IMG/VR virus record: IMGVR_UViG_3300009537_004348
Location: 1-51,818 of that record
Length of the DNA stretch: 51,818 nt
Source of the DNA: a virus
Direction: 5' to 3' (one strand)
The position numbers were made by a program, and so were the translations under genes. How positions within the stretch are numbered: the first letter of the stretch is position 1; the number at the start of each line of letters is the position of its first letter. The notes below the pieces were generated by a model that made no database searches, had not been told where the DNA came from, and saw only the letters and a program-made list of their open reading frames with translations. Positions 1,731 through 51,818 of the stretch are shown piece by piece.

Positions 1731-3605
1731 TTAAAATTTCGGCAGGTGGGCCAAAACTGGCCCTTCCCTTTTGCCGGTAAGCCTATGCTTAGGAATAGCA
1801 AATCCTTTCGTTTGGTAGAACTTAAAACCCAAATAAGCATACATTAAGGCCATAAGTCCGTCGTTTGGTGTACCACCCTTTACGTATCGAATTACCACTC
1901 TACCCTGGTGAGTTCTTACTTCTTTTTCCATCGAACAACAGTGCTCAATTAACCAGTGTATGTGTTCATAACTTTCCCAAGGAAACTTAACTTTGCTTTT
2001 ACGCATAGTTGTGAACAACTCATCTAAAACAACGTGAGAGTTACAAATCATCCTTAGTTCTTCGGGATCATATTTATATGGATTAACCAAACTTCCGCTA
2101 TTTAAACACCCTATTATTCTGCCGCCGTATTCTCGCTGCAACTCGGGCACGATATCATTACCGAAACCCAAGTCCGCTACGCCGACCTTAATATCAAACC
2201 TTCTAAACATTTCGTGCACTACTTCTTTCTTATGTCTAAAGTCATTACTCTTTAGCTTGAATGCGTTCTCAATGTGCAAAGTGCCAGCCTTATCTGCTGA
2301 TGCAACAACCACAGATGAGAATGACTTGCCGCCAGTGGAGTCGGGCGAATCTGCTTTACCACCCCAGTCAACTCCAAGAAAGTATGGAGTCTCATATGTA
2401 CCTATTATTTTGCGATTTATCATACGCCTGCTTGGTGGGGCACCAAAAGAAATTCTTCTATCGATATCCCTGCAGTACTGCCTAATCTCTTCTTCTGACA
2501 TAGGCAAATCAGAACCACTATAGAATTCGCCCAATACTTCGTTTGCCCATATACGCTCAGTGTTTGTAGCGTGAATACCAGGCTTTTCTTTTTCTAGAGC
2601 CTCACGAGTCATGCGAGGAATCAGCATTTGATTAAAGTGAAATCCTACATACTGGGGCTCTTCACCATTATCCATTTTATGTTTGGTTGGTATCCATTTC
2701 CCGGACTCTACTGAAGCAACCTTATCGTTATGAAAACCACATTTTGGACACTCTATAGTCTGCCCATATAGCCACATCTTATCCCAATCGTTACTCCCCA
2801 TCATAAACAATGGGAAATAGTGCTCGCAGTCTAAGCACTGCAAGTGATAATATCTTTGGTCAGATGCCTCCCACATCTTATAGAAGTGAGAGCCTTTTTG
2901 CAAAGGCGTACCAAAGTATAACTGTATACCCTGGTTGACAGGCCCATAACGAGCAGCAGTGAGGGTACGACGACTATTACCAATGTCGTCTTGATTCATA
3001 CGCTGAACCTCATCATAAAAAATGCCATCAAGGGTCATACCTTGAAGGCGTACAGCGTTGTTAGCATTGGATTCAACCCAAAGCTTATTTTCGTTTTTGA
3101 AAGTCTTAGCTGTCAGAGTATCCTCTGGAACATCCTTGCGTCGTCTACCATCTTCATCATACATGAGTAGTTGATTCTGAATATACCCATTCTGCGAAGT
3201 ACGCATCATGGTACTCAACTTATCTTTGGCAAAAAACTGAACGTTAGCTAATGCAGGAAAGCAGTGAAGTATACGGACAGGCGGGCTATCTGACGAGGTT
3301 CCGTACATACCACTCGCACAGAAGTATAACTCTAGGGCAGTGGCCATTACGGTTGCGCCGACCTGACGACCCTTGACACAAACTACAGGTTTGCCAGTAG
3401 GTCCCAAAGCCTCTGTGGCTATGTACCTATAGACATCTGCTAGAAATTTCCAACCTGTACCACCGCCAAGTTTTAATGGTTCGCCATCTATTGTGAGATA
3501 GTTTTCGGCAAAAGATACCGGGTCAACTTTAAGAACCTCTTTCTTTAAGTCTTCAAACCATTGTTCTGGGGTAGTATAGGAATTAAGCTGCTGCTTATTC
3601 GCCAC
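1731..3605 (-). CDS. terL: Terminase large subunit (DNA packaging ATPase/nuclease)
   Basis: This 624-aa protein is the packaging motor that translocates DNA into the prohead and cuts it. A P-loop variant GRQVGATV lies near residues 79-86 and a Walker B segment FYDEV near 196-200. A coupling motif FGTP follows near 231. A four-cysteine zinc ribbon (C257, C260, C286, C289) sits between the ATPase and nuclease domains, as in GpA-type terminases. The RNase H-like nuclease domain begins with GVDWGG near 411, with further acidic residues at VADLG near 476. Translation starts at GTG in a TAGTG overlap with the stop of the upstream gene, which implies coupling. Confidence 0.93.
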   Translation of the reverse strand: MANKQQLNSYTTPEQWFEDLKKEVLKVDPVSFAENYLTIDGEPLKLGGGTGWKFLADVYRYIATEALGPTGKPVVCVKGRQVGATVMATALELYFCASGMYGTSSDSPPVRILHCFPALANVQFFAKDKLSTMMRTSQNGYIQNQLLMYDEDGRRRKDVPEDTLTAKTFKNENKLWVESNANNAVRLQGMTLDGIFYDEVQRMNQDDIGNSRRTLTAARYGPVNQGIQLYFGTPLQKGSHFYKMWEASDQRYYHLQCLDCEHYFPLFMMGSNDWDKMWLYGQTIECPKCGFHNDKVASVESGKWIPTKHKMDNGEEPQYVGFHFNQMLIPRMTREALEKEKPGIHATNTERIWANEVLGEFYSGSDLPMSEEEIRQYCRDIDRRISFGAPPSRRMINRKIIGTYETPYFLGVDWGGKADSPDSTGGKSFSSVVVASADKAGTLHIENAFKLKSNDFRHKKEVVHEMFRRFDIKVGVADLGFGNDIVPELQREYGGRIIGCLNSGSLVNPYKYDPEELRMICNSHVVLDELFTTMRKSKVKFPWESYEHIHWLIEHCCSMEKEVRTHQGRVVIRYVKGGTPNDGLMALMYAYLGFKFYQTKGFAIPKHRLTGKREGPVLAHLPKF

Positions 3606-16272: not shown

Positions 16273-16740
16273 TTAATAAGCAACATTGTTTTCCTTTTGA
16301 AATTCTCTCATTCTCTTTAGTATTTTTTGTATTTTGTCATTGTTTGCGCATAGCTTTCGAAGTTTTTTCAGGGCGCCACCGTATCGCTTTCCATTATTGC
16401 CGTAATCAATATTACCTTGCAATGTTTTATGAATCGCGGTCTGATGTCGTCCTAGTTCAATAGATATTTCATTTTGAGTCTTGCCATCAATATAGGTCAT
16501 AATCATGACCTGCTTTTGTTTATCTGTCAGGCAATTATCTATCAAATACATAACTTCCTCAAAAAGCTCTGTGCGTAATTTTAGAAATTCTTCTGAACCC
16601 GCATAGGAGTTCAAATAAGCGGCCATCCCATCCTCATTTGCAAAATTGTTTAATAGACTCGGGTCTATGCTAATTTCGACAAATGCATGGGAGGTAATAT
16701 CGGCATCGCCAGAAGAACTACAAAGAACATTCTTGGGCAT
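16273..16740 (-). CDS. Sigma-70 region 4-like HTH regulator, 155 aa
   Basis: The centre of the protein (LTDKQKQVMIMTYIDGKTQN, then EISIELGRHQTAIHKTL) has the sequence pattern of sigma region 4, which reads the -35 element. No region 2 is seen, so it is not a full sigma factor. It could be a phage transcription regulator or a sigma fragment acting with another subunit. It starts behind GGAGGATAC at ATG 16740. Confidence 0.75.
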   Translation of the reverse strand: MPKNVLCSSSGDADITSHAFVEISIDPSLLNNFANEDGMAAYLNSYAGSEEFLKLRTELFEEVMYLIDNCLTDKQKQVMIMTYIDGKTQNEISIELGRHQTAIHKTLQGNIDYGNNGKRYGGALKKLRKLCANNDKIQKILKRMREFQKENNVAY

Positions 16741-28996: not shown

Positions 28997-29842
28997 TTAC
29001 CTACCAAGTATCTCCCTTACAATTTGTTTGTTCTTTAGACTCTTCAGCTTTAGGCTTGCACCAGCACCAGTTAATCCTACTTCTTCTGCAGCCGCTCTTA
29101 CCGAATAATCCTTAAAACACACTAACTCTATTATCTTTACAACCCTTGGATCTTCATCCGCAAGCCATTTTTGTAAATCGTGCATTGTGATAACACTGTC
29201 ATCTAGTGCACCTTCGTTCTGCTGTAGCAAGTCAGACTCATCAGATATGTCGTCAGGATTAGTGTAATCACCTTCGTAGTAATTACCCATCACAGACTCC
29301 AGAGATAACTCATTATTGCTCAGCGAAACCACTCGCTGCTTACTTGCAGGGGCACTGCAGTTATCACATAGTGCTTCCCGCAAATGTATCTTCTTAGACA
29401 CAGATGCGGTATATTCATGCCCACACTCACATGCTACACCAAAAGCCTGAGCATTTAAAGTCGTAGCATTTTTAGAGAGTCGGTTCTCATTACGAATCTC
29501 GTTGATTAACCTTCGCTCTATACGCATCTGCAAGAAAGTTGATAGTTGGGTGTTCTTAAATGGATTGTATTTTGGGATTCCTTCCAGAATATGCAGAATA
29601 ACGTTTTGCTTATTGTCTTCTAGAGTATTACCCTTCAATCTATATTTAGAAGCCAGATAGCCCACAAGCTTACCTAACTTTTGAACAACCTTATCATATC
29701 CAGCACCAGTCTTAGTATTCACAAACACATACTCGTTATTAACATCTACAATGCCAGAAAAGCCCAAGTACTCTCCAGAGATTGGATCTTTGAAAGTTTT
29801 GATATGTCTATTGATGCCAGTTTTGCTGTTTATAGTTTTCAT
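28997..29842 (-). CDS. Phage sigma-70-family factor with zinc-finger insert, 281 aa
   Basis: Region 2-like sequence is seen near 50-125 (KLVGYLASKYRLKGN, then STFLQMRIERRLINEIRNEN). Two cysteine pairs (CECGH and CDNCS, near 137-163) that could bind zinc follow directly, which is unusual. The C-terminus (from about 230) has an HTH like region 4 (DYSVRAAAEEVGLTGAGASL). It would direct RNA polymerase to phage promoters. I start at ATG 29842, six bases after TAGGAG. Confidence 0.78.
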   Translation of the reverse strand: MKTINSKTGINRHIKTFKDPISGEYLGFSGIVDVNNEYVFVNTKTGAGYDKVVQKLGKLVGYLASKYRLKGNTLEDNKQNVILHILEGIPKYNPFKNTQLSTFLQMRIERRLINEIRNENRLSKNATTLNAQAFGVACECGHEYTASVSKKIHLREALCDNCSAPASKQRVVSLSNNELSLESVMGNYYEGDYTNPDDISDESDLLQQNEGALDDSVITMHDLQKWLADEDPRVVKIIELVCFKDYSVRAAAEEVGLTGAGASLKLKSLKNKQIVREILGR

Positions 29843-29850
29843 TCTAACTC

Positions 29851-30645
29851 CTACCAAGCTTGTTGTGCGGGGCAAATGTTATTAAAGTCACACCATCTGC
29901 ATAGTATCGTGGGCACTGGTGTCCACGCATCTTCATTGCGAATCGAGTCCGCGTACGACAATAGTTCCTTTTTAGTCTTATCAATGTCTTCAAGATTAAA
30001 TTCATACTCTTTTAATTTCGCGCCGTGCCTTAGTAGCACATAGGAACCCTTAAAGGTTTCTATCTCTGGGTATTTTTCTTTCAACCACAACCCATAGACG
30101 GATAGCTGAAACTTATCTAGGTACTTTTCGTTCTTGGTTGTTTTGTAGTCAACAATATGATACCTTCCATCTTTCATTAGGTCTAACCTATCCAAAAACC
30201 CTCTAATCCGAACATCATCACGAATCATAAAATCGAATGCTGTCTCTACACCCTTAACCTTAGGCATGCCGTTACTTCGCACATACTCAAGGTAATCCAT
30301 TAATAGTGCTTTTCCTTCAGACAGCAAATCGTCTCCCATATTTGGAAAGTCTCTTCTTGCTACCTTAAAAGAATGTCCCATTAGTTTAGCGAGGGAGCGC
30401 TTTTTCTTAGTGCCCTCTTGCATATAGACTTGGTGAAATATCTCCAATGTCTTGTGACACAGGTTACCTAAGTCAAAGTGTGTCCATTGCTTTCTGGGTG
30501 CTTTCTCTATATACGTATAGTAGTACTTACGAGGACACTGGTCATACGTTTTAACCGAGCTTGCTGAGAGCTTGATAATTTCTATTTCACCAGCTGGCTT
30601 TGTAGATACTTCTTCACCATTTTCGTCGAGAATTTTTAGACTCAT
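29851..30645 (-). CDS. PD-(D/E)XK nuclease with Cas4/AddB-like cysteine cluster
   Basis: The 264-aa protein matches the RecB/Cas4-like nuclease family. C37 lies in YDQCPRKYYY near the N-terminus, the catalytic core has GFLDRLD and IVDYKTT, and a C-terminal CRWCDFNNICP completes a likely four-cysteine iron-sulfur cluster. Such enzymes cut or resect DNA ends in replication and repair. The start follows GTAAGGGGC. Confidence 0.88.
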   Translation of the reverse strand: MSLKILDENGEEVSTKPAGEIEIIKLSASSVKTYDQCPRKYYYTYIEKAPRKQWTHFDLGNLCHKTLEIFHQVYMQEGTKKKRSLAKLMGHSFKVARRDFPNMGDDLLSEGKALLMDYLEYVRSNGMPKVKGVETAFDFMIRDDVRIRGFLDRLDLMKDGRYHIVDYKTTKNEKYLDKFQLSVYGLWLKEKYPEIETFKGSYVLLRHGAKLKEYEFNLEDIDKTKKELLSYADSIRNEDAWTPVPTILCRWCDFNNICPAQQAW

Positions 30646-39319: not shown

Positions 39320-40099
39320 TTAAGTCTCTACAGTTCTGATAGTCCAGAAGTCATCAGATAGTCCGTCATTTGTGAAGTAATCAAATGGCATCCAGAAGTG
39401 TCCATCTAGACCCCACCCTTTACCCCATGAATTACGAACTAACATCATCTTTTTCTTTTTGTTGTAACCTACCGCCATGACAGCATGTCCGCCGATTACC
39501 TTTTCGCCCTTTTGTGGCATAGGAACCATTCCAGTTTCTTTAACTACATGGCTCATAAAACTTTCGTATACAGTGAAGCCATATACAAAAGGGTAGCCTT
39601 CCGTTAAACAAACCTGCATCTCTGATAAGGAACGCCCAACGCGCATATACTTAATTGTCTGATGCTCAAGCGCTTCCGTATAGCATGAGGCTGCTGGTTT
39701 CTTGGTAAAGTCCTTAATAACATATGGCCATAGCGATTCTGGGCATGCACCATGTTTATTTACACTTTTAATCGCATCTCTAATATAAGCGCCGGAATCA
39801 TAAGATATCGTGCCTATCATTTCTCTAGAGTTGTAATATGTAAACAATCGGGACGGCACAAAATTATCGCTATCCATCTTTTTATCTACAAACTGAAACA
39901 TAGCTCCTACCGCATTAGCAGTACAGCTTCCCAAGGAGCCTTGATCATATACTGGTGCACAACCAGGTCTTAAATCAACGTCCGCCTTAGTGCGTTTATG
40001 ACGACCGCACCACCCTAAATATTTTGCGTATAGGTAATCACGGACATCAGGCAAATCTGGTTGCCAGCCAAAGCCTTCAATTCTAAAAGTATTAGCCAT
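39320..40099 (-). CDS. Papain-like (C1) cysteine peptidase
   Basis: The 259-aa protein has the papain catalytic elements: Q53 and C59 in YDQGSLGSCTANA, H205 in IGGHAVMAVGY, and N223 in VRNSWGKGWG. No signal peptide or long prodomain is seen, so it probably acts in the cytoplasm or in the virion. Targets are unknown. It starts behind AAAGGGAG. Confidence 0.92.
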   Translation of the reverse strand: MANTFRIEGFGWQPDLPDVRDYLYAKYLGWCGRHKRTKADVDLRPGCAPVYDQGSLGSCTANAVGAMFQFVDKKMDSDNFVPSRLFTYYNSREMIGTISYDSGAYIRDAIKSVNKHGACPESLWPYVIKDFTKKPAASCYTEALEHQTIKYMRVGRSLSEMQVCLTEGYPFVYGFTVYESFMSHVVKETGMVPMPQKGEKVIGGHAVMAVGYNKKKKMMLVRNSWGKGWGLDGHFWMPFDYFTNDGLSDDFWTIRTVET

Positions 40100-40159
40100 T
40101 AGGTACTCCCTTTGACTTACTTAGTTAAATTTTAGCTTGCTTTGGTCTTCATTTTCTTT

Positions 40160-40705
40160 CTACTTCATCTTTCGATTTATTCCAAATAGATGATTGTACA
40201 TAGCCTCTATGTGCTTTTTAAACTGCGCCTTTGTCATACCTAGTTTGCTATAATTACAAACATTACAACAAGGATCTACGTTCCCTTTAGCATACCCTTT
40301 ACTAGAGTCGCGTCTGTCAATACCGCAATAATCCAGTAGCTGAGTATGGTCATTCTTATTCCTAGAGAACCCACCGCAGTATATACACCTCTTAGATGTA
40401 ATGCTATCAAACATTTTTTTTGTGAGGTCGAAAGCTATACCTTTTTGTTTTGCACGCTTTTTGTAGTCTCTAAATCTAGTACTAAGGTTGCGTAGATTCT
40501 TCCTATCTATAACTCTGCGCTTTGCTCTTGAAGCATCTATATCATCATGATATCTCTTTTTTCTTTTCCTTAATTTGCAATCTTTGCATTGAGAATCTAT
40601 GGAACCCAGATTCATATGAGCCCTTTGCTTTCCGTGACTATGGTACTCAGTAACTGGCTTTGTTTTATTACATTGTGTGCAAGTTCTTTCTTTTATTTCT
40701 AACAT
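40160..40705 (-). CDS. HNH endonuclease next to tmRNA
   Basis: The 181-aa protein starts at ATG 40705 behind AAAGGAG. An open frame extending further upstream runs into the tmRNA and is not used. An N-terminal zinc finger (CTQCNKTKP and CKDCK) is followed by a basic region and an HNH/McrA-like domain (RCIYCGGF, then YCGIDRRDSSKGY and NVDPCCNVCN). It is probably a mobile homing-type nuclease. It lies 16 bases after the tmRNA 3' end. Confidence 0.88.
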   Translation of the reverse strand: MLEIKERTCTQCNKTKPVTEYHSHGKQRAHMNLGSIDSQCKDCKLRKRKKRYHDDIDASRAKRRVIDRKNLRNLSTRFRDYKKRAKQKGIAFDLTKKMFDSITSKRCIYCGGFSRNKNDHTQLLDYCGIDRRDSSKGYAKGNVDPCCNVCNYSKLGMTKAQFKKHIEAMYNHLFGINRKMK

Positions 40706-40721
40706 AGATTCTCCTTTCGAT

Positions 40722-41133
40722 TGGTGGACCCGCTGGGAGTCGAACCCAGGTCCAAGAAACCTCAAACAAATCATCTTATGACCATCTCTACTCTCAAGGT
40801 TATTTAAGGATTAACCTAAGTGAGCAGTACCTATAAAATCCGGGGGCGCCGGTTTCCCGTGGCCCTCCACCAGTATGCATTTTGAGTCTGCCCAAGACTA
40901 ACCGTCAAGCCGGTATCACGCCTTCTCACTTCTGTTGCCAGGCTGTGAGTGCCCCGCTCTTGCTAAGCTTATTAGGCCGCTAGAGCAGTCAACCCTTCAA
41001 CGGTTTCGTCAAAGAGTCCAGCAAAGAAATTATCTTCGCCAATTATTGTTTTGCGCCTTTATTAGCGTGAGCCAGGCACCTCTCACGGGTCATCAAAAAA
41101 GCCGTCAATTCCCTGTCGAAACCGGTCGGGCCC
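40722..41133 (-). ncRNA. ssrA: tmRNA (ssrA), 412 nt, complete
   Basis: The 5' end GGGCCCGACCGGTTTCGACAGGG pairs over 7 bp with the 3' end CGGGTCC, followed by A and an encoded CCA. The T arm is CTGGG-TTCGACT-CCCAG. The tag frame starts at a GGC resume codon after a CAAAACAATAATT stretch and ends in two TAA stops. The tag begins GEDNFFAG and ends LTALAA, with 22 residues in all. tmRNA rescues stalled ribosomes and tags their products for proteolysis, usually by ClpXP, with SmpB. Its first base is the last base of the GNAT stop codon. No SmpB is seen in this window. Confidence 0.93.
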
Positions 41134-41555
41134 TATATGTCGTATCTGTAAAAATTTGTCTCCCTAAGCTTAAATCCTACGCGCTGGTAGAGTTTATTCG
41201 CCGCCTCTCGTGATGGTCGGGACGTTAGATTTACACTTTTAGCCCCAGCCTCTTTTGCCACTTCAATGGCCTTTAGGGTTAGACTTTTGCCAATTCCCAT
41301 CCCACGAGCACTTTCGTCTACAACCACATCTTCAATCCATGCCTTTATTCCAGTAGGGCACGGATATACTGCCAAAGTAGTACATCCTACAAGTTTGCCG
41401 TCCACCTTAGCTAATATAAGCGTACAAGCCTCACAGTCAATCACTCGTTGCAAGTCCTCTAAAGTAGGTAATTTGGCCGTCTGAGAAAGCTGTGGAATCA
41501 GATTGTCTAATGATTCTGCCGTCTTGCATATACTGATTTCAATCTGTGATTCCAT
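41133..41555 (-). CDS. GNAT-family acetyltransferase, 140 aa
   Basis: The acetyl-CoA-binding motif is clear (VVVDESARGMGIGKSLTLKA), followed by NKLYQRVGFKLRE. Substrate is not known. The gene runs into the 5' end of the tmRNA. It starts behind TGAGGAAGG. Some GNAT proteins modify aminoacyl-tRNA, which makes the setting next to a PTH2-like gene and tmRNA worth testing. Confidence 0.88.
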   Translation of the reverse strand: MESQIEISICKTAESLDNLIPQLSQTAKLPTLEDLQRVIDCEACTLILAKVDGKLVGCTTLAVYPCPTGIKAWIEDVVVDESARGMGIGKSLTLKAIEVAKEAGAKSVNLTSRPSREAANKLYQRVGFKLRETNFYRYDI

Positions 41556-41582
41556 GTGCCTTCCTCAATATTAGCTGCATTA

Positions 41583-41897
41583 TTAGTATTTTCTGCCTCT
41601 CTGGCAATAGCTCTTAGCCACCTTATTATCATTTACATTGTGTTCAGGTCTAAATCTGTAAAAGGGATTGAATCTAAAGCTATTTCTAAAAATCCAAGCA
41701 AACCACAAATTGTAGGCTCTAACTTTTAATTTATGGATAAATGAACTAAATCTCCAAACCTCGCCGCCTATCATGTTTAGATTTTGCGACGCCTCAAATC
41801 CCGCAACTTTATGCAAATCACACCCATCTCTTAATGTTAAGAGGTAGAAGGATCCAATTTGATTAGTCCTAATTTCTTCTTGAATTTTCTTACCCAT
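41583..41897 (-). CDS. Possible basic protein, 104 aa
   Basis: The frame overlaps the end of the PTH2-like gene by 61 bases and has no good Shine-Dalgarno site. The product is basic and aromatic (YNLWFAWIFRNSFRFNPF). No family is recognised. It may be real because it fills the gap up to the GNAT gene, but the evidence is weak. Confidence 0.45.
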   Translation of the reverse strand: MGKKIQEEIRTNQIGSFYLLTLRDGCDLHKVAGFEASQNLNMIGGEVWRFSSFIHKLKVRAYNLWFAWIFRNSFRFNPFYRFRPEHNVNDNKVAKSYCQRGRKY

Positions 41898-42259
41898 CGC
41901 TTTACATCATCCCACCAGGTCGTTCCTGGCATACTTAGCAGCTTGAACTTTTTTAACAGTACTCGCTTCTCTTGCGGTATCACTTCCGTAGCAAATGCCG
42001 TGTATCGTTTCATGGGATTTTCATAGAACAACTGGCACTTGATTCCTTTGTTCTCTATCTTGCGTGCGTTCCTTAATAGACTTTGTTCACTGGAGCACTG
42101 TAGCATAACCAGCCCGGAAGGGAATTGGTCACACTGCTCTAAGTGTATCCCTGCTTCTAGTGCAGCATGACAAGCCTGCACAACTATTTGCCTTGGTTCT
42201 ATATCCGTGCATACCATTACGTATACAAACGGCTTAACTTTGCTATAATCTAATGACAT
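41837..42259 (-). CDS. Peptidyl-tRNA hydrolase 2-like protein
   Basis: The 140-aa protein resembles PTH2: a first strand (FVYVMVCTDIEP), a helix with VVQACHAALEAGIHLE, and later CQLFYENPMKRYTAFATEV and LLKKFKLL. PTH2 enzymes free tRNA from peptidyl-tRNA. The family lysine/glutamine positions at the first helix differ somewhat, so activity is not certain. It starts behind GTGGAGAAG and lies upstream of tmRNA in the same direction. Confidence 0.75.
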   Translation of the reverse strand: MSLDYSKVKPFVYVMVCTDIEPRQIVVQACHAALEAGIHLEQCDQFPSGLVMLQCSSEQSLLRNARKIENKGIKCQLFYENPMKRYTAFATEVIPQEKRVLLKKFKLLSMPGTTWWDDVKRWVRKFKKKLGLIKLDPSTS

Positions 42260-42285
42260 TAGTACTTCTCCACATGATACTAATT

Positions 42286-42314
42286 TTTCTAAAAATAATC
42301 AAGATGATGGTCAA
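42286..42314 (-). promoter_or_regulatory. Candidate promoter for the PTH2-GNAT-tmRNA unit
   Basis: TTGACC (42314-42309), a 17-base spacer and TAGAAA (42291-42286) on the minus strand. The -35 box is good and the -10 box fair. It lies in a 92-base gap before the PTH2-like gene. Confidence 0.45.
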
Positions 42315-42351
42315 ATGTTCGCTCGATCGATAACGCTAAGCGCTACCCTAT

Positions 42352-42954
42352 TTACTTGCCATCCTCAGATAGCACCTGATTCAATCCCTTTTCGATAAGT
42401 CTGCCTGCAAAATCCCTCTGTGATAAATCTGACATAGCAGCCAAATTCTTCACCTTCTGTCTTAGACTAGGTGACACCAGAGTATCCATCCTCACAAAAT
42501 CGACATTTTGATTGGTAGTCTTTTGCTCTAACTTAACCTTAGAAACTCGCCCTGCCCCGGCAGTTGCGCCAGTCATCCTGACGGAGGTATGCTCCTCATC
42601 GTCGTCCTCCTCAAAATCATTGGTAACGGTGCTGTTACCAACAGAGTCCGAATTATTGGCAAACATCTCATAAATCCAGCCCTTTTTTAGCATGGCGCTA
42701 ATAACCGCCCCTACATTATCTGGGGGATTAGTCCAACCATTAGTTCTATCTACTAAAAACGCAACCGATTCGTCTGCTTTCAGACCCTGCTTTCCTGCAT
42801 AAGATAGCAAAGAATATAGCTCGTTGTCTACCTTTTGCCTTAACTCTTTTGCAGTAAGCTTGCTTCCTAATTGTGCTTTCAAAAGCCTCTGAAGGTTCTT
42901 GAAAGATGATGGAAATTCCTTACGAAATCCCTCTGTAATATTACTGTTATTCAT
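42352..42954 (-). CDS. Unknown protein with RHH-like C-terminus, 200 aa
   Basis: The N-terminal 100 residues are helical. An acidic linker (FEEDDDEEH) follows. The last 45 residues (VDFVRMDTLVSPSLRQKV, then LSQRDFAGRLIEKGLN) have the strand-helix-helix look of a ribbon-helix-helix DNA-binding domain. It could be a regulator. It starts behind TAGGAGATT. No terminator is obvious downstream. Confidence 0.72.
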   Translation of the reverse strand: MNNSNITEGFRKEFPSSFKNLQRLLKAQLGSKLTAKELRQKVDNELYSLLSYAGKQGLKADESVAFLVDRTNGWTNPPDNVGAVISAMLKKGWIYEMFANNSDSVGNSTVTNDFEEDDDEEHTSVRMTGATAGAGRVSKVKLEQKTTNQNVDFVRMDTLVSPSLRQKVKNLAAMSDLSQRDFAGRLIEKGLNQVLSEDGK

Positions 42955-42963
42955 TCAAATCTC

Positions 42964-43308
42964 CTAAGACATTTGACCATCACCTTGATTATTTTTTGGC
43001 TTAATGTACAGATTTAAACCGCAATGCTTATGCTTGTCGTAAAAGTAGGCTATATACTTGTACATTCGTTCTTCTATACATCCAAACTCGTATATTTTGT
43101 ATATGGCGTTGGTGATTAGATTTGTTTTGTAGCACACGCCCTCAAACAGTTTTGGAACTCTATCTAGATATTGAATCAGCTCTAAGTAATGTTCTTTGAC
43201 ACGCTGCGTCTCCAGGTCCAGAATAACATTCTCTACGGACGGACACAGACGAAAGCCTGTCTCTTTATCCGTGTGTCCTTCGCAACCTAAAATCAACCAT
43301 GCCTTCAT
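42964..43308 (-). CDS. Unknown protein, 114 aa
   Basis: No family is recognised. The protein is aromatic and helical with several cysteines (LGCEGH, RLCPS, GVCYK, FGCIEE, KHCGL). It starts two bases after the dCMP deaminase stop with a weak ribosome binding site, so it is probably translated by coupling. Confidence 0.72.
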   Translation of the reverse strand: MKAWLILGCEGHTDKETGFRLCPSVENVILDLETQRVKEHYLELIQYLDRVPKLFEGVCYKTNLITNAIYKIYEFGCIEERMYKYIAYFYDKHKHCGLNLYIKPKNNQGDGQMS

Positions 43309-45847: not shown

Positions 45848-46438
45848 TTAGCCTTTCGATTTGGTTTTCTTGGTATCTTGCTGTTTAGGCGCCTTCCTCG
45901 GCACCATCTTTCTCGATGGAAATACCTTGTCCGCTATTCCATATTTAATAGCCTGATTGGCAGACATATAATTGTCTCCCTGCATATCCTTAAGCACCTT
46001 AGCTTTTGTTTGTCCAGTGTGCTTGGCTAACAGCGTAATATAGATATCTTGCATACGCTTTATTTCGGCCACTGATGTTTCCATTTCGCTTACAGTACCC
46101 ATGGACCCACCAGAAATTTCATGAATCATGATACGTGTGTTAGGACTCACAAATCTGTAGCCCTTATCTCCAGCAGACAGTAATAGAACTCCTGCAGACA
46201 TTACTTTGCCTATACCAACTGTATTGATAGGACAAGAGGAAGTGCGCATACAGTCGTACATTAGTAACGCTGCGTCAACACTTCCTCCATATGTATCAAT
46301 ATAAATCGTAATAGGCTTAGTATGGTCTATATACTCTAACGCTGTCATTTGTTCCAGGAACGCTGCCCCTGTATCTTCTTTAATAGCACCCGAAAGCACT
46401 ATACGCCGTAGTTGTTCATGGAAATTGTTAATCGCCAT
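45848..46438 (-). CDS. clpP: ClpP-family serine protease
   Basis: The 196-aa protein has the ClpP fold and triad: S81 in GIGKVMSAGVLLLSAG, H106 in IMIHEISGG, D155 in QGDNYMSANQAI. IDTYGGSVDAAL is the oxyanion-region glycine motif. The C-terminus is a Lys-rich tail. ClpP chambers degrade proteins with Clp ATPases. Some phages use ClpP-like enzymes as head proteases, but this gene is 44 kb from the portal and sits directly after an E1-like and JAMM pair. Confidence 0.93.
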   Translation of the reverse strand: MAINNFHEQLRRIVLSGAIKEDTGAAFLEQMTALEYIDHTKPITIYIDTYGGSVDAALLMYDCMRTSSCPINTVGIGKVMSAGVLLLSAGDKGYRFVSPNTRIMIHEISGGSMGTVSEMETSVAEIKRMQDIYITLLAKHTGQTKAKVLKDMQGDNYMSANQAIKYGIADKVFPSRKMVPRKAPKQQDTKKTKSKG

Positions 46439-46447
46439 ACTATCTCC

Positions 46448-47083
46448 TTATACTTGATGAACACCAATATCTTTAAGGGTAATCTCCCTATTCAGGCACT
46501 TGTTAGTAGTAACAAACTGTGTTATCGACTCTGCAAGTACCGCAACTGTAAAGTGAACTAAGTTCGCAGCCAAAGGATAGTCACAGACATCCTCTTGCTT
46601 CACCTCTACCTTTGGAATCTTGTAATTGGCATTCCATTTTATTTCTGCAAAACCATTATCGCTCATACCAGCATGTACACAGGGGAGCCTTAGTTCAAAG
46701 CACGCATCATTTACAAGTCTACGGCTTTCCCAGTTGTCAAATACATCTACAACTAAGTCGTGTCCCTTAAGCAGTTTCTGAGCATTATTTTCACGCAATT
46801 GCTTATCTACAGCGTTTACAACCTTCTTGGTTGCCTGGTGCATTAGAGATTGTATGGCCTTGGCTTTCTTTTGTCCAACATCACGCAAGGTGTAAACCTG
46901 TGTTGCGATATTCTTGTCTTCAACCCTGTCCATATCAATGACAGTTATCTTGTTGAAACCTTGACGCAACAACACGCTGATTAGATTTGAGCCAAGAGCA
47001 CCAGCTCCACAGATACAGATATTGAAATTCTGAATCTTGTCGAAAGCGCCCTTGGACCTATAGTTTATTTCATGCTCGTTCAT
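46448..47083 (-). CDS. E1/ThiF/MoeB-like ubiquitin-activating-type enzyme
   Basis: The 211-aa protein has the ATP-binding GAGALG (26-31), the acidic VIDMDRVEDKN stretch (D50, D52), TLRDVGQKKAKA and DVFDNWESRR (D116). The position of the usual arginine after DKN (NIATQ) holds Thr. C167 (EDVCDYPLA) is a candidate catalytic cysteine. E1 enzymes adenylate the C-terminal glycine of ubiquitin-like or sulfur-carrier proteins. Its start overlaps the JAMM gene end by ATGA. No zinc CxxC pairs of MoeB are present. Confidence 0.92.
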   Translation of the reverse strand: MNEHEINYRSKGAFDKIQNFNICICGAGALGSNLISVLLRQGFNKITVIDMDRVEDKNIATQVYTLRDVGQKKAKAIQSLMHQATKKVVNAVDKQLRENNAQKLLKGHDLVVDVFDNWESRRLVNDACFELRLPCVHAGMSDNGFAEIKWNANYKIPKVEVKQEDVCDYPLAANLVHFTVAVLAESITQFVTTNKCLNREITLKDIGVHQV

Positions 47084-47688
47084 TTTTCTGGCTTTCTTGG
47101 CAGATTTTCTACCAATGGTTTAAGTAACTCAATCAGTTTGTTAAACCTATCGCGTAGGTCAGATTGAGTTTCCTCTATGTTGGTCAGGCGCTCCTGAATC
47201 CCTTCAAATATACCCGCCTCATCGTTTTCACTGAAGAACTCGCCTTCAGTCAAAAAGTCTACAGGATTGAAGAAAGACTCCTGAGGGTCAAGCCAAACAT
47301 CATAATTCACATCATTATTTGTGCTTACACCAATCTCTTGGAAGTTTATCTTACCGGTGTCTGACTTTGTAAACAACCAACCGTTCACCTTCTCATCTGT
47401 TTCTATTATACATATAAGGCTCTTACCTAAGCACTTAACCCACTGAACCATAGTATTGATATCAATTTGACTCATCTGGTTCATTCCGCTTGGATGGGTG
47501 TGATAAAAGCCAGCAACATCCTTATACTTATCTTCCCTATCCCAGACAGACTTATAATCAAACTCAACTGCCCCAGGATTATGCTGGGTATCAGGGTTCA
47601 TACTTATAACAGAAAGGTGGGGTGAGCCTTCCTTGTGAAACATCTCATAACTCACCAGTAACTTATACACTTCAAAAAACTTGCTCAT
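47080..47688 (-). CDS. JAB/JAMM-domain isopeptidase
   Basis: The 202-aa protein has an intact JAMM zinc motif: H63, H65, S73 and D76 in GFYHTHPSGMNQMSQID, with an upstream Glu candidate at E15 or E20. JAMM enzymes remove ubiquitin-like or sulfur-carrier tails. The C-terminal 35 residues form a coiled coil that may recruit a partner. It is coupled to the E1-like gene and lies nine bases after the 316-aa gene. Confidence 0.9.
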   Translation of the reverse strand: MSKFFEVYKLLVSYEMFHKEGSPHLSVISMNPDTQHNPGAVEFDYKSVWDREDKYKDVAGFYHTHPSGMNQMSQIDINTMVQWVKCLGKSLICIIETDEKVNGWLFTKSDTGKINFQEIGVSTNNDVNYDVWLDPQESFFNPVDFLTEGEFFSENDEAGIFEGIQERLTNIEETQSDLRDRFNKLIELLKPLVENLPRKPEK

Positions 47689-50687: not shown

Positions 50688-50688
<1 letters not shown>

Positions 50689-51818
50689 TATCCGCTCCTT
50701 ACAGCATTTACTACTTCAATAATTCGAGCGGAAGCATAATCAATCTCTTCTTCGGTATTTCCTTTACCTATTCCTATTCTTATGGCGCAATCAGCATTGT
50801 CTACGCCTAATGCCCTTATAACATGAGAGGGTTCAGGATTTTGAGATATACAGGCTGAGCCACTGGAGACAATAACGTCGTCCATGCCCAAAACGAGAGC
50901 CTCCGCCTGAACCCCTTTTATAGTCAAGTTTAGGTTGTTTGGCAACCTATTTTCCATCGTTCCGTTGATTTTTATATCATCAAGATTGTCTGTCAAGCTT
51001 TTAAGAAGTCTATCTCTAAGGCGTCCAATTTGCTCTCGTTCAGCAGGGGACTCTTCTATAAGTAACCTGCAAGCCTCACCAAAACCCACAATGGCTGGCA
51101 CATTAGAAGTTCCTGATGTAACTTCCTCTTGAAAGCCCCCGCATATAATAGGCTTTACTCTTGACTTATCTTTAATGTATAAAGCCCCTATACCTTTGGG
51201 CCCATATATCTTGTGAGCTGACATAGACAAAGCATCTATATTCATCCTCTGAACATCTATGTCCACCTTGCCTATCGCTTGAGTGGCATCAGTGTGGAAG
51301 AATACATTATTTCTCTTGCATATCTCGCCTATCTTTTCTATATTGTATATCGTTCCTATCTCGTTGTTGGCCGCCATCACTGATACAATGCCAATAGTGT
51401 CGTCAGAGGCCAAAATGTCATTTAGAGCTGTGAGACTTAGTAATCCTTGCCCGTCTACTTGAAGTAATATAACTCCATGTGCGCCATCTTGATTAATTCT
51501 ATCTACAGTTTTAAGAACTGAACTATGCTCTACGTTAGTGGTAATTATTTTTCTGGGACTTGTACACTTGGCCATAAGTCCTTGAAGCACTATGTTGTTT
51601 GCTTCTGTAGCACCACTGGTAAAACAAATTGCGTCTGTCGGTGCGTTTATGACTGCTGCTACTTGCTCTCTGGCTTGCTCAACAGCCTCTCTTGCATCAT
51701 TGCCAACCTCATGAACAGCAGAGGGGTTGCCGAAGCGTTCCGTCCAAAATGGCTTCATTGCCTCGACAACCCTCTCATCGCAAGGAGTTGTTGAATGATG
51801 GTCTAGATAGACTCTCAT
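50688..51818 (-). CDS. Cysteine desulfurase (NifS/IscS type)
   Basis: The 376-aa PLP enzyme is complete, with ATG at the last bases of the window. YLDHHSTTP opens it, the PLP lysine K203 lies in SAHKIYGPKG, and the catalytic loop SSGSACISQNPEPSH has C322. It moves sulfur from cysteine to acceptors for iron-sulfur clusters, tRNA thiolation or sulfur carriers. It is coupled to the 82-aa gene. Whether it serves phage iron-sulfur enzymes or the E1-like pathway is open. Its upstream context is outside the window. Confidence 0.93.

Follow-up and report, generated by a model that had tools for sequence, protein, structure and literature searches.

Phage-borne tmRNAs are known from several collections, and the accessible excerpts of the reports cited here by PMC number set out their range. 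Ten phages with a tmRNA are given in a 2014 table including the mycobacteriophages Bxz1 and Wildcat and Bacillus phage G, and the same source describes an RNA consisting of only the tRNA-like domain (TLD) in phage DS6A (PMC4131195). A tmRNA was recorded in 402 of the 18,146 phage genomes of a 2021 collection (PMC9004378), and huge phages carrying tmRNA together with SmpB have been published (PMC7162821). The commonest tag length is 10 residues (PMC11915505). In an early collection glycine was the resume residue of 30 tmRNAs, Bacillus anthracis being the example given (PMC1168896). Phage tmRNAs, glycine resume codons and tags of 8-35 residues (PMC8012679) are already published, and the gene described below adds another case.

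The window, which is the whole stretch of DNA analysed, corresponds to a linear viral record (51,818 bases) that covers part of the genome of an uncultured phage. Across it ARAGORN called one tmRNA and found no tRNA. The tmRNA features, with the basis for each, were as follows.

40722-41133, minus strand: tmRNA (ssrA) gene, one-piece, 412 nt, CCA encoded (ARAGORN and RF00023)
41053-41087, minus strand: pseudoknot PK1, CGUGAG/CUCACG and GUGCCU/AGGCGC (6+6 bp), from tmRNA position 47 and 12 nt 5' of the resume codon (sequence reading, in agreement with the Rfam alignment)
40975-41040, minus strand: tag reading frame GEDNFFAGLFDETVEGLTALAA, resume codon GGC at 41040-41038 (ARAGORN, Rfam register)
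40991-41018, minus strand: 12-bp hairpin within the tag frame, GACUCUUUGACG-AAAC-CGUUGAAGGGUU (fold)
40969-40974, minus strand: double stop TAATAA in the loop of a helix-5-like hairpin (sequence and fold)

A sequence-only reading had proposed a tmRNA at these coordinates, which proved exact, with the gene on the minus strand. The covariance model RF00023 matched over its full length (model positions 1-374 of 374) at 101.1 bits and an E-value of 1.9e-38, relative to a gathering score of 47, and placed the glycine resume codon at the consensus position. The landmarks named in that reading, a 7-bp acceptor, an encoded CCA, a T arm and the TTTCGACAGGG box, were all seen in the sequence together with a D arm. 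The acceptor pairs GGGCCCG with CGGGTCC and is followed by ACCA, both by direct reading and in the Rfam alignment, and its third pair is G-U. A G-U third acceptor pair is the alanine identity pair, and with this pair and the encoded CCA present, charging with alanine is predicted. A second H-type pseudoknot starts at tmRNA position 185, and the UAAUU-GGC of the gene lies in the exact register of the Rfam consensus UAAuU-GCa. The structural features of the family that were tested, namely PK1, the resume codon in register, the tag frame and the stop in helix 5, were all found.

The gene therefore resembles the bacterial one-piece tmRNA of RF00023 in its G-U acceptor pair, D and T arms, PK1, resume register, helix-5-like stops and ALAA tag end, and differs from it in a 22-residue tag relative to approximately 10 residues, a stable hairpin within the frame and a low-scoring later pseudoknot region. 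The score of 101 bits was low for a tmRNA (105-198 bits for those of Bacteroidota), and the stretch beyond helix 5 was aligned with low posterior probability. Like the tmRNAs of Bxz1, Wildcat and phage G, it is a complete ssrA within a phage genome, although the glycine start with a long tag sets it apart from the known phage tmRNAs. A 651-base stretch of the window gave no nucleotide match among 50,697 phage records at an E-value of 1e-3, and at E-values up to 10 the best 30 of 85 records matched only the 3' end. We regard the gene as a bona fide and in all probability functional tmRNA of a putative huge-phage lineage that would rescue ribosomes with host partners and tag their products for proteolysis. 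The intact landmarks, the resume codon and UAAUU in consensus register, the two clear pseudoknots and an improbable ALAA end count in favour of function.

The glycine resume codon and the 22-residue tag of the earlier reading were recovered by ARAGORN, with ALAA followed by TAATAA as had been described. That reading had also placed the tag length beyond the usual; 22 residues is indeed long, but lies inside the published range as excerpted (PMC8012679). An open frame of 22 codons was expected in 32% of cases from composition and is unsurprising alone, while the chance of an ALAA ending, again from composition, was 2.6e-5. Three successive hairpins were predicted in the tag region with a stability beyond all 200 shuffles (z -3.75), the first being short and covering the resume codon, the second being the 12-bp hairpin in the frame and the third the helix-5-like hairpin, whose loop contains UAAUAA. 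The first is comparable to helix m of a 2005 tmRNA modelling paper, as far as the excerpt describes it (PMC1168896). The tag frame folded alone gave a z-score of -4.67, with none of 300 shuffles equally stable.

Three bacterial tmRNAs carry tags beginning with the same four residues, GEDN, as the window tag. Two of these from Bacteroidota (L188, L189) encode GEDNYALAA, using nearly the same codons for these four residues, and one from Bacillota (L382) encodes GEDNLALAA, each a tag of nine residues relative to the 22 of the window. The simplest reading is that the window tag represents an ordinary GEDN(Y/F)-ALAA tag lengthened in frame by 13 inserted codons, which would fold as a hairpin, and the bacterial tags support this reading. 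Tag length, the in-frame hairpin and a tight operon packing (below) set this tmRNA apart.

Tags of at least 20 residues were present in 7 of 60 viral tmRNAs, among the matches listed, and in none of 161 bacterial tmRNAs (Fisher p 8e-5, kinship ignored). When only one-piece tmRNAs were considered the counts were 3 of 18 viral, among the matches listed, and 0 of 160 bacterial (p 9e-4, kinship ignored). A tmRNA 3'-end pattern matched at least 80 loci in viral contigs, and 60 of the 80 listed had ARAGORN tags after a 250-550 nt length filter. Forty-eight of the 161 bacterial tags came from a Clostridia-rich pattern set, and the Bacteroidota sample was drawn twice and counted once. Both samples are biased, and the seven long viral tags include at least one related pair (L256, L275). 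Two viral tmRNAs found by Rfam (L037, L129) were missed by ARAGORN, so some tags were uncounted, while the Rfam tmRNA family was found at all seven long-tag loci. No published statement of a viral excess of long tags was found in the excerpts returned by a literature search. The tag of Bxz1 is also long. If the excess holds in unbiased samples, it would suggest that phages put protein tagging to a use of their own. A GGCGAA(R)-type tag pattern matched three viral stretches; these had no tmRNA by ARAGORN, were absent among the RF00023 matches and were set aside.

A long tag could alter the fate of the tagged product if the phage tmRNA competes with that of the host, through slower degradation, another adaptor or protease, or a phage-specific target. 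The length of the window tag relative to the 9-10 residues found in 58 of 59 Bacteroidota tmRNAs, together with the viral excess above, is consistent with such retagging, as are two further long phage tags. The deposited genome of Salinibacter phage SRUTV-1 encodes a tmRNA (80 bits to RF00023) with a 23-residue tag, which has an alanine start and a VRA end relative to the glycine start and ALAA end of the window tag. The second is in an unrelated tRNA-rich 65-kb phage contig (G019, L037:75-471), where a tmRNA missed by ARAGORN has a glycine-start, 27-residue basic tag frame GKSLINRVKSFFANLFKVGTPRMALSY without an AA end. However, the ALAA terminus is conserved in the window tag, and ordinary ClpXP degradation would be expected from it. 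The extra tag sequences also differ between phages, save for an FFAxLF common to the window and G019 tags that may be a chance similarity, and the tag-frame hairpin is not general. When eight long-tag frames were folded, only the window frame and, more weakly, that of L235 (z -2.02) clearly beat their shuffles, the other six ranging from -1.39 to +0.53, and hairpin insertion as a general origin of long viral tags was therefore unsupported. Retagging by the window tmRNA is considered unlikely. The broader proposal, that phage tmRNAs as a class have lengthened their tags to give stalled products a non-host fate through slower or redirected proteolysis, with the hairpin-forming 13-codon insertion of the window as one instance, is similarly doubtful.

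The glycine start had been called typical of Bacteroidetes. With phyla named as in the genome record titles, glycine was the first tag residue in 19 of 59 Bacteroidota, in 2 of 27 Bacillota (one being GEDNLALAA) and in 0 of 27 Pseudomonadota. It is not diagnostic of Bacteroidetes: most Bacteroidota tags start with alanine (32 of 59), and glycine also occurs in Bacillota and, in the excerpted collection, in Bacillus anthracis (PMC1168896). A host assignment from the glycine start was rejected on these counts. Shine-Dalgarno matches of at least 5 nt preceded 30 of 61 window genes relative to 12.6% of random positions (one ORF at the record edge was dropped). The -7 motif of Bacteroidetes is TAnnTTTG, and this motif was not enriched in the window, with 29 occurrences on the coding strand and 33 on the other. 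The Shine-Dalgarno frequency and the lack of -7 motif enrichment argue mildly against a classical Bacteroidetes host. The whole gene showed no clear affinity in a comparison with 88 tmRNAs, where the best match was a phage (23 bits) followed by Clostridia at approximately 22 bits and Bacteroidota at approximately 19 bits.

The window encodes a terminase and a DnaE-like polymerase, whose best matches in the phage collection were 25% and 32% identical, respectively. It also encodes IF-3, DnaJ, trigger factor, a CCA/polyA-polymerase head domain, two sigma-like proteins and a ClpP-like protease. The two sigma-like proteins are separate (28997-29875 and 16273-16740), one matching region 2 and one matching region 4, and are perhaps a split phage sigma factor. 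Two uncultured viral contigs, G003 (105 kb) and G006 (162 kb), contain relatives of 44 and 46 of the 62 window ORFs, respectively, in an order almost wholly kept. The terminase and phage polymerase within the record and the synteny with these viral contigs confirmed that the tmRNA belongs to a phage genome and to neither a bacterial contig nor the edge of a prophage. Huge phages are those above 200 kb; the window is a 51.8-kb fragment, and beyond the two syntenic contigs a distant relative reaches 302 kb. A search for an FtsK relative found none.

The tmRNA family was detected in 1 of 34 records with a related terminase or polymerase (0/17 and 1/17). Only six of these records exceed 50 kb, so many of the absences mean little, although the lack of a detected tmRNA in 33 of 34 relatives, mostly short fragments, suggests that the lineage does not depend on it. 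The one positive record was the distant relative G031 (301,683 bp), whose tmRNA scored 148 bits and has a glycine resume codon and an ordinary tag, GEQEYAMAA, in the Rfam alignment. This tmRNA was found by Rfam and missed by ARAGORN, and adjoins an EF-Ts-like gene (L129:1501-1846 and 2797-3279). The glycine-start tmRNA of G031 and the IF-3, trigger factor, DnaJ and ClpP-like protease of the window further count in favour of a functional tmRNA. The window is like the huge phages with translation genes, as excerpted (PMC7162821), in that its tmRNA occurs in one genome with IF-3 and other translation or folding genes and its distant relative has EF-Ts beside its tmRNA. A clear tmRNA is added to a poorly known, putative huge-phage lineage with IF-3, trigger factor, DnaJ and a ClpP-like protease, and phage translation and protein-quality control could be studied there as one set.

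The tmRNA lies within a 3.6-kb accessory block.

39320-42954, minus strand: accessory block with a papain-like peptidase, HNH-like gene, tmRNA, GNAT gene, two unknowns and a PTH2-like gene (six ORFs; gene-order comparison)
40160-40705, minus strand: HNH/endonuclease-VII-like ORF with its ATG at 40705, 17 nt past the tmRNA end (phrog_1035, E 4.1e-25; phrog_3118 HNH, E 4.9e-12)
41133-41555, minus strand: GNAT acetyltransferase ORF whose stop codon overlaps the first base of the tmRNA (Pfam PF00583, E 2e-19)
41837-42259, minus strand: PTH2-like small protein, a weak match (PF01981, E 1.5e-4, 22.3 bits, below the curated cut-off of 23)

The tmRNA is packed between the GNAT gene and the HNH-like gene, for which no significant Pfam family was found. 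The overlap with the GNAT stop codon and the HNH-like ORF 17 bases beyond suggest that the tmRNA is probably released by processing of a longer transcript. The GNAT gene is preceded by a promoter-like site (41607-41579), although this is weak given 21 such sites in the region relative to 9.2 expected. The PTH2-like protein had no PDB sequence match, and its catalytic motif was poorly kept when judged by eye against the PTH2 motifs; a ribosome-rescue pair of the tmRNA and this protein is a weak suggestion. Direct repeats around the block were short or weak. A 28-nt inverted repeat (42291-42318 and 42969-42996, 96% complementary) surrounds the ORF at 42352-42954 at the block edge.

No relative of any of the six block ORFs was present at this site in the three close relatives that cover it (G003, G006 and L220), where the flanking genes are adjacent to each other. 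The HNH-like gene has relatives elsewhere in G006 and G031, and the tmRNA has a G+C content of 51% relative to 42% for the window. These observations would fit a bacterial ssrA captured in the accessory block beside a mobile HNH-type endonuclease and drifting as passive cargo unimportant to the phage. However, the functional landmarks are all intact despite the deep divergence from the 88 tmRNAs, which implies long retention under selection, and G031 also keeps a tmRNA. Passive carriage is therefore considered quite improbable, and a working tmRNA remains the preferred reading.

The partners of such a tmRNA would probably come from the host. The sequence-only reading had looked to the rest of the genome for SmpB (PF01668), and none was found in the window fragment or in the other 35 viral records, with the same search positive in 10 of 10 control bacterial genomes. 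This differs from the huge phages with SmpB as excerpted (PMC7162821). ClpX was similarly absent from all 17 records searched. Both proteins would consequently need to be supplied by the host, and host SmpB is the likely partner with which the window tmRNA would trans-translate.

45848-46438, minus strand: ClpP-like protease (PF00574, E 4.3e-49; PDB 6x60, E 5.9e-34)

The triad of this protease is presumably Ser81, His106 and Asp156, by alignment with ClpP, and Asp156 is replaced by Glu in both relatives. The protein also resembles head maturation proteases in PHROGs. A dedicated phage pairing of tmRNA with ClpP was unsupported since the ClpP-like gene occurs in G003 and G006, both of which lack a tmRNA, and tmRNA and protease may well act separately. 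ThiF-like E1 and JAB-like peptidase genes adjoin the ClpP-like gene and a NifS/IscS-type cysteine desulfurase lies further on (46448-47688, 50688-51818); these are possibly a sulfur-carrier or ubiquitin-like set.

From the observed sequence, anatomy, reading frame and gene context of the tmRNA we infer its expression, processing, partnership with SmpB, tagging and the degradation of its products. The RNA would be cut out of a multi-gene transcript and charged with alanine by the host AlaRS through the G-U third pair. Together with host SmpB and EF-Tu it would release ribosomes that have stalled on broken mRNA in infected cells, adding alanine and the 22-residue tag to the stalled product, and the ALAA end of the tag would be recognised by ClpXP-type proteases. 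The RNA could instead act mainly by titrating SmpB and blocking host trans-translation, as is suggested for the TLD-only RNA of DS6A. TLD-only RNAs do exist in phages, in the excerpted report (PMC4131195) and in three unannotated cases found here, but the window RNA has retained the complete mRNA-like domain, pseudoknots, a resume codon and a degron ending that a decoy would not need, and this role is considered highly improbable.

Two further observations were made among the other loci. Unannotated RNAs of 81-83 nt matching only the tRNA-like domain of RF00023 (57-62 bits) were found in Stenotrophomonas virus Jojan60 (L346:550-632) and in the Streptomyces phages LuckySocke (L349:552-632) and pSt2308 (L351:552-632). 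These resemble the TLD-only RNA of DS6A, which may titrate SmpB, as far as the excerpt describes it (PMC4131195). A second, divergent tmRNA (L080:1018-1408, 70.7 bits, without an ARAGORN call) was located in a Bacillota MAG, on a contig that looks phage-like; the MAG has an ordinary tmRNA elsewhere.
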